Source: Anaerolineaceae bacterium (lineage in GTDB: Bacteria; Chloroflexota; Anaerolineae; Anaerolineales; Anaerolineaceae). Taken from it: 64,000 bases of DNA. The position numbers and the translations under genes were made by a program. This document shows, in pieces, positions 11,327 through 42,763 of this stretch. Position 1 is the stretch's first letter, and every line of letters begins with the position of its first letter. The notes beneath the pieces are model-generated. The model saw only the letters and a list, made by a program, of their open reading frames with translations, was not told the origin of the DNA and did no database searches. Where the stretch lies: assembly GCA_029975475.1 (NCBI GenBank), contig JARKPB010000010.1, positions 186,001 to 250,000 of the forward strand, given 5' to 3'.

Positions 11327-11872
11327 TTATTGTCCAAGCAGATCTTCCAGAGATTGCACGGCAGCGCGCAGCTGTCCGGGTGAGTCTGCCCGGTTTTTCA
11401 GTTCAATGATCCTGGAAGGATTCCACAGCGCGCTGGCGGACTCAATGAGTTCGGGGCGCACCACCACAAGCGCCACAGAAAAAGCTGGCTGGCGCAGCAC
11501 GTCGAAGGCGGCGGTCCAACCCTGCGAAAAATTAAACTCCAGAGGTCCAAGCTCGTCAATAATTAAAAGACGGGTGGGGAGGCTTTCCCGCAGAACCTGG
11601 TTGCCCCAAGAAAACGCCTGCCGGTTAAAATACCAGTCCACAAACTGATAGTCTTGCGGGGTCTGCCGCGCGGCGGAGGCCAGCAGGCACTTCTCACCGC
11701 CGCGAAGATCTACCGCCCAGATGTTTTGCTTGATCTGACCGGAAAATTCTGCCGGAGAGAGCAAACCGGATACCTGCCAGGCTCGTTCAGAAGCCCGGTC
11801 AACCAAGTGCTGGCAGAAGGTGGTCTTCCCAACCCCGCGCCAGCCAGTGAGCAGCCAGACTTCTACAGCCAA
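11327..11872 (-). CDS. THEP1-like P-loop NTPase
   Basis: 181 residues. Walker A is LLTGWRGVGKTTFCQHL (K at residue 16), and Walker B is RLLIIDELGPLEF (D106, E107). After the P-loop, SGLLSPAEFSGQIKQNIWAVDL resembles the THEP1/COG1618 nucleotide triphosphatases. These hydrolyse NTPs in vitro, but their cellular role is unknown. The gene overlaps the end of the ABC ATPase gene by 10 nt and is the last gene of the metal-chelate uptake cluster, so a role in handling the imported cofactor or metal is possible (inference). Confidence 0.8.
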   Translation of the reverse strand: MAVEVWLLTGWRGVGKTTFCQHLVDRASERAWQVSGLLSPAEFSGQIKQNIWAVDLRGGEKCLLASAARQTPQDYQFVDWYFNRQAFSWGNQVLRESLPTRLLIIDELGPLEFNFSQGWTAAFDVLRQPAFSVALVVVRPELIESASALWNPSRIIELKNRADSPGQLRAAVQSLEDLLGQ

Positions 11873-12642
11873 TTGATCTGCTTCCTTCCTTCCGATGAAG
11901 TGACTCGAATCGGCACGCCGTAGATTTGAGACAGATTCTGGTCTGTGGCAACCGCTTCGGTCTCGCCGGTGAGAACCACCCGCCCCTTCTGCATCAAGAC
12001 CAGTTGATCGCTGACCGCCAGGGCGATTTCCGGTTCGTGGGTGGTCATCAGCACTGTGACACCGCTTAATTTTAACCGCTGTAATAACTCCACCAGATGA
12101 ACTTTGTTGCTGAGGTCGAGATGAGAGGTTGGCTCATCCAGCAATAACAACTTTGGCTTTTGCGCCAGCGCGCGGGCGGCCAGCACCAGCTGTTTTTCGC
12201 CGCCGCTGAGAGCCAGCATGGACTGTCGGGAGATATGCGCAATGCCTACCCGCTCCAGAGCCTCGTACGCCACTTCATAGTCTTCTTCGCCCGGCAGGCC
12301 GAGCGGCGGCAGGTAGGGAGTCCGACCCAGGAGGACGTATTCCAGGACGGAGTATTCAAACGGGATGTGCTCGCTTTGAGGAATCAACGCGATCTGCTGC
12401 CCAAGATGGCGGCGGCTGATCTGTTGAATGCGCTTTCCGTCAAGCTGGATCGTCCCCTTCCAGGGTTTTAACCAGCCCAGCGCCAGCAGCAAGAGGGTGG
12501 TCTTTCCGGCGCCGTTCGGACCTAGGACAGCGGTAACGCCGCCTTTCTTCAGCGAGAGATTAAGATTGTCCAGCACCGGTCCCGATGCGCGGTTGTACCC
12601 AAACGCAACCTGGTCAAAGGTCATCAAAGCCGGCGCGCTCAT
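11863..12642 (-). CDS. ABC transporter ATPase, iron-chelate/cobalamin type (FecE/BtuD-like)
   Basis: 259 residues from the ATG at 12640-12642, which overlaps the permease stop (ATGA). Walker A GPNGAGKTT, Q-loop LIPQSEHIPF, signature LSGGEKQLVLAARAL, Walker B LLLLDEPTSHLDL and the switch histidine in TTHEPE are all intact. A much longer frame continues upstream, but it is antisense or frame-shifted relative to the permease and is not used. It energises the FecCD-type permease. Confidence 0.94.
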   Translation of the reverse strand: MSAPALMTFDQVAFGYNRASGPVLDNLNLSLKKGGVTAVLGPNGAGKTTLLLLALGWLKPWKGTIQLDGKRIQQISRRHLGQQIALIPQSEHIPFEYSVLEYVLLGRTPYLPPLGLPGEEDYEVAYEALERVGIAHISRQSMLALSGGEKQLVLAARALAQKPKLLLLDEPTSHLDLSNKVHLVELLQRLKLSGVTVLMTTHEPEIALAVSDQLVLMQKGRVVLTGETEAVATDQNLSQIYGVPIRVTSSEGRKQINWL

Positions 12643-13676
12643 CGCTCCACCTTCACACCGCGCGAAATCATCAGGATAAGAAACACGCCTGCGCCAAGTA
12701 AAGAGGTCAAGATGCCCAGCGGAATTTCCCCTGCCAGCAGGGTGCGGGCCAAATCGTCGCACAGGATGGTAAACATGCCCCCCAGCAGCATCGCAGCCGG
12801 CAGAGCATAGCGCGTATCCGAGCCAAAAATCCGCCGCGAGATATGCGGAATGATCAACCCGACCCAGCCCACCATGCCGGCGACGGAGATCACCGCTGCG
12901 GTTGGCAGCACCGCGGCCGTCAGCAGCAAGAGCCGTTCCCGCTGCGGCGCAGCCCCAATGGAAAAAGCGGTTTCTTCGTTGAGCGCGAGCACATTTAAGC
13001 GCCAGCGAAGCAGAAACAGGACAGACAGGCTGACCAGCACCACCGGCAAAATAGACAATAACTTTGGCCAGGTAACACTGGCCAACCCGCCAAGCAGCCA
13101 AAAGGTGATTTCCGGCAGCTGGCTGAGCGGATCAGCCAGATATTTAAGGATCCCCAACCCGGCGGAGAACAGCGCTGAGACCGCGATGCCGGCCAGCACC
13201 AGCCGCAGCACCCACCCCCCGTAGCGGATGCGCCGGGCGAGGAGATACGACATTCCCAGACCGAGCAGCGCGAAAAAGGCAGCGCTGCCCTGGATGACCA
13301 CAGCAGAGCTGCCCAATAACACAATACAGAACGCCGCTCCAAATGAAGCGCCCTGAGAAACACCCAGAAAACCGGGCTCCACCAGCGGATTGCTGAAAAG
13401 CATTTGAAAGACGACCCCGCCCGCCGAAAGCGCCATGCCCAGAAGCAGAGCCGTGATCAGGCGCGGCAGGCGCAGATTGAGCACCAGCAGCCTGGCCAGA
13501 TCATCCTGATTGAGGCGCTCCCAGCTGATCAAACCTGGAGCCGGGTAGCGCCCCAATAACAGCGAGGCCAGGAAGAGAAACGCCAGCCCGAACAGAAGCG
13601 CCCAGAATAACCGGCGGTGAGATTGATTGCGGCGGTAGACCACTTGCAGTTCGGAGCTGGCAGTTTCAGAGATCAA
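12639..13676 (-). CDS. ABC transporter permease, FecCD/BtuC family
   Basis: 345 residues, a polytopic protein with about ten hydrophobic segments. Characteristic segments are LRLPRLITALLLGMALSAGGVVFQMLFSNPLVEPGFLGVSQGASFGA, SVAGMVGWVGLIIPHISRRIFG and GEIPLGILTSLLGAGVFL. This family imports iron-siderophore, heme or cobalamin complexes. It is coupled by 4-nt overlaps to the binding-protein gene upstream and to the ATPase downstream. Confidence 0.94.
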   Translation of the reverse strand: MISETASSELQVVYRRNQSHRRLFWALLFGLAFLFLASLLLGRYPAPGLISWERLNQDDLARLLVLNLRLPRLITALLLGMALSAGGVVFQMLFSNPLVEPGFLGVSQGASFGAAFCIVLLGSSAVVIQGSAAFFALLGLGMSYLLARRIRYGGWVLRLVLAGIAVSALFSAGLGILKYLADPLSQLPEITFWLLGGLASVTWPKLLSILPVVLVSLSVLFLLRWRLNVLALNEETAFSIGAAPQRERLLLLTAAVLPTAAVISVAGMVGWVGLIIPHISRRIFGSDTRYALPAAMLLGGMFTILCDDLARTLLAGEIPLGILTSLLGAGVFLILMISRGVKVER

Positions 13677-14797
13677 GGCAGGTCCCCACGGAAAGTAGGA
13701 CGAATTTTACCCTCAAAAAACTCGGCGTTCAAGCCGTAAACGGTTTGATAGAATTGCTGGGTTTCTTTAAGAATATCCAGCTGTGAGAAGATTTCAGGAT
13801 GCAGCCGGCCAGCCAGATAGGTCAGGCCCAGGATCCAGCGCGCGTCAGACTGGTCCCAGCTGTACACGTCAGCCGGGAAGCCGAAGAGATGTTCTTCTTT
13901 CACGGCCCGGAGCGCCTGCCATTTGGGATCGGTTTTTAAGGAAGCGGCGATCTCGGCAGAATTCTTCTGATAAGAAATTATAAAGATGTAATCCGCGTCC
14001 CAGGCAGCAATTTGCTCTAAGGTTACTTCAGTCCAGCCTTTGCCAGGGTTGGCTGACGCCCAGGCGGGTGTACCGCCCGCCATTTCCACCATGCGGGTTT
14101 GAATCCAGGACATCGGCGGGACATTGAAGGCGACCGCGCCGTCCTTCTCGGTGTAATACAGCATCAATACGCTGGGTTTCTGGGCAGCATCCTTGACCGC
14201 ATTTTCCACTGCTGCGGCTTTATTCAGGTAGAAATCAGCCATTTCTTGTGCGCGGGGTTCATTTTGAAACACCTTTCCCAGGATGGCGAGATCGCGGGTG
14301 TACTGTTCGGGAGTTTCGAGGTCCAGATAAATGACCGGAATATTCAGCGCTTCAATGGGTTTGCCAACTGTTTCAGCCAGATAACTCTTCAGAATCACCA
14401 GATCCGGTTTGGCTGCCGCGATCTGTTCAGCGCCCGCGTCATTTTCCAGAAGCATTTTCTGATCATAACCCGGATCAATCAGGGAAATAAAATTGCCGGT
14501 GCCCTGCGAAGCCTTGCCCAGCGCGACGATCCGCTGCGCCGCTTCGGGGAACATATAGGCAGCGTCCAGAATCAAGATCAGGCCCTTGCCGGTAATCACA
14601 ATCCGCTGCGGCGCGGCGGCCAGGGTTACTTCGCGGCCGAGCGCGTCCGTAATCTTAATTGAAGTATCCACCGGCGCCTGCGTTTCCGTTTCAACCGCCG
14701 CCGGAGCAGCCGGCTCCGATGTCGGTTGCGCAGCCTGCGGGCTGCAAGCACCAAGCACCAGAGCTGCAAGCAGTACGAACATCCAAAGTTTTTTCAT
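13673..14797 (-). CDS. Iron-chelate/cobalamin-type substrate-binding lipoprotein
   Basis: 374 residues with a lipoprotein signal (MKKLWMFVLLAALVLGAC) and a Pro/Thr/Ala linker. The mature protein has the class III (FepB/BtuF-like) pattern: IKITDALGREVTLAAAPQRIVITGKG, KPDLVILKSYLAETVGKPIEALNIPVIYLDLETPEQY, and a long connecting helix. It delivers a metal chelate to the FecCD permease. The chelate is not identifiable from sequence. The upstream gene is the PadR regulator, 27 nt away. Confidence 0.9.
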   Translation of the reverse strand: MKKLWMFVLLAALVLGACSPQAAQPTSEPAAPAAVETETQAPVDTSIKITDALGREVTLAAAPQRIVITGKGLILILDAAYMFPEAAQRIVALGKASQGTGNFISLIDPGYDQKMLLENDAGAEQIAAAKPDLVILKSYLAETVGKPIEALNIPVIYLDLETPEQYTRDLAILGKVFQNEPRAQEMADFYLNKAAAVENAVKDAAQKPSVLMLYYTEKDGAVAFNVPPMSWIQTRMVEMAGGTPAWASANPGKGWTEVTLEQIAAWDADYIFIISYQKNSAEIAASLKTDPKWQALRAVKEEHLFGFPADVYSWDQSDARWILGLTYLAGRLHPEIFSQLDILKETQQFYQTVYGLNAEFFEGKIRPTFRGDLP

Positions 14798-14824
14798 GCG
14801 ACAGTCATCTCCTTAATAAATGGA

Positions 14825-15370
14825 TTAAAGGTTTTGGTATGGTGCGCCGCAATGTTCCAGTTCATCCAGCCATTGCAAAATGCTTTGCACCTGATGATAG
14901 CGAAACAGCGCCACCTGGCCGGAAAAGCCGCTGACACTGTCCAGTTGATTTTCCAGAGAGACCAGCCACTTCTGGCAGATCTCTTTTTGGCGGTTGATAA
15001 GCGCAGACATCACCCGCGGCTCAACATCCTGCCAGAAATACAAACGGGCAATAAAATCCTGGCGAAAATCGCGGGCGGCCGAAACCGGAGATTGCAGCCA
15101 GGCAAGAAAGGCTTCCTCTCCGGCCGGTGTGATGGAAAATTCATTGCGCGCCGGGGAAGCGGGCTGGGGCAGGCGCCGGTGTTCAAGGTATCCCAGCTGT
15201 TCCAGCTTATCCAGAGAGGCGTACAGCACGGCCGGTTTGATTTCCCAGACCTGTCCGATGCCGTTGGGTTCATGCCAGGCCTGAAGAAGCTCATACCCAT
15301 GTTTGCTGCCGCGGCGGATCAATCCCAGCAGCAGATATTCCAGGCGGAGCGGTTGAGCAGTGCGCGGCAT
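14825..15370 (-). CDS. PadR-family transcriptional regulator
   Basis: 181 residues from the ATG at 15368-15370 (MPRTAQPLRLEYLLLGLI). The PadR winged helix is clear: LGLIRRGSKHGYELLQAW, IKPAVLYASLDKLEQLGYLEHR and FSITPAGEEAFLAWL. A helical C-terminal region follows. An upstream GTG would start inside a large palindrome and is less likely. It precedes the chelate ABC transporter genes on the same strand, so it probably controls them. The palindrome 10 nt upstream is a candidate operator. Confidence 0.88.
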   Translation of the reverse strand: MPRTAQPLRLEYLLLGLIRRGSKHGYELLQAWHEPNGIGQVWEIKPAVLYASLDKLEQLGYLEHRRLPQPASPARNEFSITPAGEEAFLAWLQSPVSAARDFRQDFIARLYFWQDVEPRVMSALINRQKEICQKWLVSLENQLDSVSGFSGQVALFRYHQVQSILQWLDELEHCGAPYQNL

Positions 15371-15379
15371 AATCAATAA

Positions 15380-15414
15380 AAAATCCACTAGTCATTAAAT
15401 GACTAGTGGATTTT
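15380..15414. promoter_or_regulatory. Perfect 17-bp inverted repeat upstream of the PadR gene
   Basis: Arms 15380-15396 and 15398-15414 are exact reverse complements around a single central base, with core CCACTAGTCATT. It lies between the DUF364 stop and the PadR start. Read on the minus strand it is followed by a run of six T, so it can form a terminator for the DUF364 gene. Its position also suits an operator of PadR. The sequence cannot decide between these roles. Confidence 0.75.
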
Positions 15415-15434
15415 AACCGACGCGCCGGTAAATG

Positions 15435-16196
15435 TCAATCTATTGCCATCAGGCCGGGCGACTGCAAAGTTACCAGACGAACGCCATGCCCGCGAATCTG
15501 ACGAAAGGTTGCGCCCTGACGCACCAGAGGCACCACCCGCTGCGGATCAGTCACGATCGAGCCGGACAGGACATCAATACCGTAATCAAACAAGCGGGGA
15601 GACAGCGGCGTTGAGGGTCCCAGCAGCAGCACTTTGGCATCTTGCCGGCGGTGACGAAAGACATCCTCAAAGGTGTGGTTGATCAGCGTGGTCGCCGTGA
15701 TGGCCAGGATATCCGCCTGCGGAATAATTTCCGGAGCCGCTTCTGCAGGCAGATCATCCTCCTGCGGATTCAATTCCAGTACCCACAACTGTTTTACCTG
15801 CTGGTAAAGCTTCTTCACGAATGGAAAATGTCCGATCAAGGCGACGCTTGAATCGCTGCCCAGGCGGGCGATTAAATCTTCAGCGGGAAGGTCTACAGCG
15901 TTCTGCACCGGCGGCAGCAGGGCATTCAGCGCGGCCAGAGCGATGCTCACTTCGGTGTAGCTTTTGGAGGATATCCCTTGCAGGAGTTCATCGCTGCTTA
16001 AGCTGTCCAGCCATCCGGCGCGTTCAACGGCCGGCAGGCGCGCATGCTCAAATTCTGGATTTGCCAGGGTCGCCGCCAGCCCGCAGCGGTGCTCGCCCGC
16101 CAGATCAAGCTCCACCGCCGTCCAGAACAAACCGACGGTAACCTGAAGGACTTTCGCTTGAGGAAGTTCGGTGATCAAGTCCGATAAGAATTGCAT
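15435..16196 (-). CDS. DUF364 (putative heavy-metal chelation) protein with DUF4213-like N-terminus
   Basis: 253 residues. The N-terminal part carries VTVGLFWTAVELDLAGEHRCGLAATL and, later, SSKSYTEVSIALAALNALLP. The C-terminal Rossmann-like part has SVALIGHFPFVKKL, then ADILAITATTLINHTFEDVFRHRRQDAKVLLLGPSTPLSP and the end DPQRVVPLVRQGATFRQIRGHG. This matches the DUF4213-DUF364 architecture found near metal and cofactor transport genes. The enzymatic role is unknown. It is the first gene of the co-directional uptake cluster. Confidence 0.82.
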   Translation of the reverse strand: MQFLSDLITELPQAKVLQVTVGLFWTAVELDLAGEHRCGLAATLANPEFEHARLPAVERAGWLDSLSSDELLQGISSKSYTEVSIALAALNALLPPVQNAVDLPAEDLIARLGSDSSVALIGHFPFVKKLYQQVKQLWVLELNPQEDDLPAEAAPEIIPQADILAITATTLINHTFEDVFRHRRQDAKVLLLGPSTPLSPRLFDYGIDVLSGSIVTDPQRVVPLVRQGATFRQIRGHGVRLVTLQSPGLMAID

Positions 16197-42678: not shown

Positions 42679-42725
42679 AAGATGACCTCCTGATCATTTG
42701 ATCGGTATAAGGTTTGAGTGGTTTT

Positions 42726-42752
42726 TTAGCACTCATTTGCCATGAGTGCTAA
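42726..42752 (-). promoter_or_regulatory. CIRCE element (HrcA operator)
   Basis: TTAGCACTC (42726-42734), 9-nt spacer, GAGTGCTAA (42744-42752): an exact consensus. HrcA bound here represses groESL in the absence of heat stress. hrcA is not in the window. Confidence 0.97.
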
Positions 42753-42763
42753 ATCCAGGCAGA

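Follow-up and report, generated by a model that had tools for sequence, protein, structure and literature searches.

The nearest described counterpart of the system considered here is MolBCA (HI1470–1472), the molybdate/tungstate importer of Haemophilus influenzae, in which a BtuCD-type permease and ATPase are combined with a binding protein of the FecB fold (PMC4031551). The same combination is encoded on the minus strand at positions 11327–16196 of a 64,000-nucleotide stretch (hereafter the window; positions 186,001–250,000 of contig JARKPB010000010.1) from an Anaerolineaceae-type member of the Chloroflexota (order Anaerolineales; genome 3.15 Mb, 98.9% complete), whose nearest named relatives are Levilinea and Anaerolinea thermophila. 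Unlike MolBCA, the window locus also contains genes for a THEP1-like P-loop NTPase and a PadR-family regulator, and relatives of the locus additionally carry a molybdenum cofactor (Moco) riboswitch. The cluster, in our judgement, probably codes for an importer of molybdate, possibly tungstate, that has BtuCD/MolBCA architecture, together with a dedicated THEP1-family NTPase. The importer type is known; what is new, within the literature searchable, is the association with the NTPase, the linkage to the Moco RNA, and the occurrence of operons which join the NTPase to a transporter of the energy-coupling factor (ECF) type.

The THEP1/NTPCR family is conserved all the way from archaea to humans; its members, for which structures have been solved, hydrolyse NTPs slowly, and we know of no agreed role for them. 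The Aquifex protein (aaTHEP1; PDB 1ye8) splits both ATP and GTP slowly, a kinase activity was not confirmed, and a cleft beside the γ-phosphate, lined by conserved basic residues, could hold an anion (PMC1079890); a tentative tie to tRNA modification has also been proposed. The window NTPase has in common with this family (COG1618, PF03266) the fold, the P-loop and the Walker B glutamate of the additional-strand catalytic E (ASCE) class, but belongs to a distinct subfamily, which is marked by W...WGN and DELGPLE motifs and is tied to metal importers. In the described Moco RNA regulon, RF01055 riboswitches precede Moco genes and those for the molybdate transporter (Regulski et al. 2008, PMC2408646), as is the case for relatives of the window locus; unlike in that paper, the text of which contains neither ‘fec’ nor ‘NTPase’, the Chloroflexota RNA precedes FecBCDE–NTPase and NTPase–ECF operons. 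Finally, the DUF364 protein Dhaf4260 (PDB 3l5o) is, like the DUF364 protein of the window, a two-domain protein, and both PadR and tungstate/molybdate/iron ATP-binding cassette (ABC) transporters have already been noted as DUF364 neighbours (PMC2954201); unlike in the Dhaf4260 setting, the conserved importer–NTPase unit described here has DUF364 beside it only in some cases.

Of 151 genomes sampled from the order, 42 carry an ortholog of the window FecB gene, and up to 20 kb of the surrounding sequence was compared (loci are numbered L, genomes G). The unit conserved across the order is (PadR)–FecB–FecCD–FecE–NTPase: the FecB tree has 44 labelled rows, and in 29 of them the NTPase gene adjoins FecB–FecCD–FecE, lying either directly downstream or, in families f86 and f91, 5′ of FecB, and a PadR gene is found 5′ of FecB in 12 of the NTPase-linked orthologous loci in addition to the window. 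With orthologs in this many genomes and the NTPase adjoining in most loci examined, the arrangement is not a product of chance. The first-pass annotation had proposed an operon for metal uptake together with a partner that uses NTP, and that proposal gains support from the recurrence of the NTPase–transporter link, even as a gene fusion (see below).

Molybdate or tungstate, and not a corrinoid or siderophore, is the most likely cargo, because Moco riboswitches precede six orthologous operons and molybdoenzyme genes adjoin three. Rfam searches placed RF01055 RNAs right before the operon in L100, L101, L103 and L104; L096 and L102 were added by a genome-wide search. These operons come from two families of the order, four of them from one genus; since only about 41 RF01055 RNAs occur across the 151 genomes, their adjoining one type of operon six times is far beyond chance, even though four share a genus. 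The P3 stem, which is associated with Moco rather than with the tungsten cofactor (Tuco) (PMC2408646), is present in L096 and L104, the two of the six riboswitches that were aligned to the model. In L098 and L103 the operon is preceded, on its own strand, by genes of the dimethyl sulfoxide (DMSO)-reductase family of molybdoenzymes; L100 contains a homologous gene. The FecB protein of the window is 56–63% identical to those of the aligned riboswitch-bearing relatives. The source genome itself encodes MoaA, MoeA, an FdhA-type formate dehydrogenase scoring over the NCBIfam cut-off and a QrcB-like protein, and therefore needs molybdenum or tungsten. The Moco regulon of the Chloroflexota would gain a class of molybdate/tungstate importer.

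All six genes of the window cluster are intact and each matches its Pfam family, which bears out the cluster as first annotated. The substrate-binding lipoprotein (FecB/MolA-like; positions 13673–14797, 374 aa, Peripla_BP_2 1.9e-24) carries the lipobox LGAC at residues 15–18, with Cys18 invariant in the alignment. It is followed by a FecCD/BtuC-type permease (12639–13676, 345 aa, PF01032 (FecCD) 1.9e-75) and a FecE/BtuD-type ABC ATPase (11863–12642, 259 aa, PF00005 (ABC_tran) 6e-33), with overlaps of 4 bp between FecB and FecCD, 4 bp between FecCD and FecE, and 10 bp between FecE and the NTPase gene. A BtuCD-like permease, an ATPase and a FecB-fold binding protein are thus all present, as in the MolBCA-type (class II) architecture. 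MolA (PDB 3psa) is among the solved structures nearest to the AlphaFold model of the lipoprotein (predicted local distance difference test score, pLDDT, 88; VIA-align Z 29.2), at an identity of only about 22%.

The NTPase (11327–11872, 181 aa) matches PF03266 (NTPase_1) at 2.7e-11, over the Pfam cut-off, and has the Walker A motif GWRGVGKT and the Walker B motif IIDELGPLEF. Its model (pLDDT 96.7) aligns with Aquifex THEP1 (1ye8) at Z 18.2 and with human NTPCR at Z 15.8, the next fold following at Z 10. All 25 of the aligned orthologs match PF03266 and have in common the Walker A motif, W...WGN and DELGPLE, the last being Walker B including the ASCE glutamate; the NCBIfam equivalog PRK13695 is not reached (38 bits against a cut-off of 156). 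Links to DUF2478 and to MobB were also considered and set aside, as only weak profile matches were obtained (Pfam MobB weakly in 9 of the 25 orthologs); MobB, a P-loop protein of Moco maturation, resembles the window NTPase in being a small P-loop NTPase linked to molybdenum, but its fold fits poorly (template modelling (TM) score ~0.25). FecE and the NTPase form a single fusion protein, with the NTPase at the C-terminal end, in three genomes of one genus (g3; L218, L219 and L222).

A phylum-wide search revealed a second context for the NTPase. The order Moco riboswitch, NTPase gene, ABC ATPase gene is found in L215, L256, L259 and L260; of these ATPases, that of L215 was annotated and is a tandem ECF-type protein, and those of L256, L259 and L260 score alike with the same profile. 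At a contig end, L261 (partial) shows a riboswitch followed by the beginning of an NTPase gene, and L225 has a riboswitch with an NTPase gene; the genomes behind L215, L256, L259, L260 and L261 represent five families. Beyond this point the L256 operon encodes a protein with an Oxidored_molyb domain, CbiQ and FmdE. Because the NTPase stands beside two unrelated classes of importer under the same cofactor-sensing RNA, its placement suggests that it serves a cargo common to both, and, judged from gene order, the subfamily appears tied to molybdenum uptake itself and not to one type of transporter. It is possible that the riboswitch–NTPase–ABC ATPase loci (L215, L256, L259 and L260, as well as L225 and the partial L261) encode an ECF-type importer of molybdenum or tungsten. 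More tentatively, and at somewhat less than even odds in our judgement, this THEP1 subfamily may constitute a new molybdenum-handling NTPase, acting right after molybdate or tungstate has entered by a BtuCD-like or ECF importer, in which case the NTPase–ECF operons would encode an undescribed ECF-type importer of molybdate/tungstate (or of pterin-bound molybdenum). A link between THEP1 and molybdenum was not found in a literature search of incomplete coverage. An orphan NTPase family of long-unknown function would hereby be tied to molybdenum handling through its recurrent place beside importers controlled by the Moco switch in relatives, and a bacterial THEP1 branch found behind Moco riboswitches, beside two unrelated types of importer and fused to one of them, offers a concrete and testable assignment.

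In Dehalococcoidia-like genomes of small size (L235–L238), the gene right after an operon for a TtrA-like molybdoenzyme encodes a weaker homolog of the NTPase (70–86 bits). Relatives in two other phyla are weak (44–51 bits), and no molybdenum context was recognised around them, as judged by the sizes of the open reading frames alone. Separately, in L243, L244 and L245, whose genomes gave no MoaA match, a Moco riboswitch precedes an ABC_cobalt-type protein of 460–470 aa, a tandem ABC ATPase and CbiQ; the riboswitch of L155 (the same site as L243, and the one aligned of the L243–L245 set) is without P3.

Several observations weigh against a molybdate or tungstate importer. ModB is also present in the source genome, and no RF01055 RNA was detected in the window (E ≤ 10) or in that genome, so that the assignment of molybdenum to the source organism rests on orthology. 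The lipoprotein model lies as near to the iron binder YiuA (Z 29.0), and also to unassigned proteins, as to MolA; since these scores tie, the fold alone cannot separate molybdate from iron. Moreover, G072 (L097), a genome 99% complete, carries the full PadR–FecB–FecCD–FecE–NTPase operon with no match to MoaA, MoeA or PF01568, and MoaA, tried as a phyletic correlate, is not enriched with FecB (29 of 42 FecB genomes versus 87 of 109). On the supporting side, ModB is rarer in genomes with the FecB system (8/42 versus 42/109; one-sided p 0.016, a value which ignores phylogeny), as would be expected if the ModB and FecB systems can replace each other. A rival reading is a ferric-siderophore or iron-chelate importer, of which the clades with Moco riboswitches would represent a later change of use; in its favour, G072 gives no match to Moco genes, the FecBCD/FecE families are mostly iron systems, and the lipoprotein is structurally near not only YiuA but also the annotated iron binder 4hn9. 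Such an importer would have to accommodate Moco riboswitches before orthologous operons in two families, and before the NTPase in more, as well as the adjoining molybdoenzyme genes; no siderophore genes were seen among the annotated neighbours, though no systematic search for them was made, and on balance we regard an iron cargo as unlikely. The corrinoid (vitamin B12) importer with a salvage NTPase, raised as an alternative in the first-pass annotation, draws on the permease and ATPase scoring best against BtuC and corrinoid/F420-type models (the best NCBIfam model for FecCD is BtuC, far under its cut-off) and on CobA being the next closest to the THEP1 fold. Against this reading, a scan of 28 orthologous loci gave no cobalamin riboswitch at the Rfam threshold, the source genome encodes a further FecBCD system, BtuF-like, at another site, and the regulatory RNA that was found is that for Moco. 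We have accordingly rejected a corrinoid cargo, which appears very improbable, and the Moco riboswitches and the BtuF-like system together also argue against a metal chelate; the corrinoid/chelate reading of such clusters is to be corrected towards molybdate or tungstate.

A further explanation concerns only the NTPase and is compatible with a molybdate or tungstate cargo: the protein might regulate the ABC ATPase, through gating or energy coupling, and not be a metal-handling enzyme. The NTPase gene adjoins or is fused with an ATPase gene, be it FecE or the tandem ATPase of the ECF type, as a regulator of the ATPase might be; these ATPases, however, come from unrelated classes of transporter, with the NTPase and the Moco signal as the constant elements, the NTPase gene lies upstream of FecB in the f86 and f91 loci, and it occurs without an importer in L224, L225 and L229. 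A regulatory role is consequently conceivable but rather doubtful.

For the favoured molybdate/tungstate importer, a mechanism can be outlined in which the lipoprotein would catch the oxyanion outside the membrane and the FecCD2–FecE2 complex would carry it inward at the expense of ATP. The NTPase, encoded beside FecE or fused with it, might then take up the metal or pass it on for cofactor assembly using ATP or GTP; we infer that what it hands over would be the molybdenum/tungsten oxyanion or a Moco precursor. The operon would be shut off by PadR, bound to a palindrome over its own promoter, and in some relatives a Moco riboswitch stands upstream of the same genes where PadR would exert control here.

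The PadR gene (14825–15370, minus strand; Pfam PadR 2.4e-12) is open from GTG 15388, but its start is likely ATG 15370, because GTG 15388 sits within a palindrome. This predicted PadR operator (15380–15414) is a perfect inverted repeat with 17-bp arms and a 1-nt centre, which overlaps the −10 element and start region of a predicted σ70 promoter (15410–15438, minus strand; TTGACA-N17-TAAAAT, 11/12 consensus matches, the best of the region) between DUF364 and PadR. It is the longest perfect palindrome in a scan of the 64-kb window, no palindrome of this length arose in 200 shuffles of the 5.3 kb around it, and inverted repeats of related design (TACTCACTnAGTGAGTA-like; e.g. TATACTCACTGAGTGAGTA) lie just 5′ of PadR in most orthologous loci. 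The window PadR groups with the FecB-linked PadR proteins (up to 42% identity) and not with the DUF364-linked ones. From these sequence features, PadR–FecB–FecCD–FecE–NTPase is predicted to be an autorepressed operon starting after DUF364; alternatively, the palindrome could be a weak terminator, because T residues come after the repeat. PadR and the Moco riboswitch were not seen together at any locus, although at frequencies of 13 and 6 among about 40 loci this is not significant (p ~0.08). Homologous regulator genes lie upstream of the operon in L032, L098, L099 and L100; that of L100 reads as an XRE-type helix-turn-helix protein with a cupin-like C-terminus, a third mode of control besides PadR and the Moco RNA.

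The DUF364/DUF4213 protein (15435–16196, minus strand; 253 aa; PF04016 2.6e-39, PF13938 4e-13; PDB relative 3l5o) probably has a transcription unit of its own, given that the region's strongest promoter-like site separates its gene from PadR. Only the window, L030–L032, L096, L216 (with a gap of 0.9 kb) and two distant loci (L133 and L146) have DUF364 next to the orthologous operon; at other loci it stands alone or with a PadR of another kind, in most cases shorter. L096 resembles the window most closely, with the order Moco riboswitch, DUF364 (overlapping FecB by 4 bp), FecB, FecCD, FecE and NTPase. Neighbourhood counts led us to reject DUF364 as a core partner, its other neighbours being mixed (a sulfonate-type ABC system, a phosphodiesterase), and it is probably an occasional accessory. 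The gene-neighbourhood survey, set beforehand as the test, therefore divides the first-pass proposal: the NTPase and PadR each co-occur with the importer, but DUF364 and THEP1 show nearly no co-occurrence, and DUF364 is not supported as a constant member of the cluster.

The pair recurring in L034–L037, L039, L042, L043, L045 and L064 consists of a PadR, short in most cases, and DUF364, independent of any importer. In L136 (9300–10611), from a closed Anaerolineaceae-type genome, a DUF364 gene is directly followed by a MoeA-like gene. Elsewhere in the window, the sequence TTTAGCACTC-N9-GAGTGCTAAA at positions 42725–42753 resembles the controlling inverted repeat of chaperone expression (CIRCE), the operator of HrcA.

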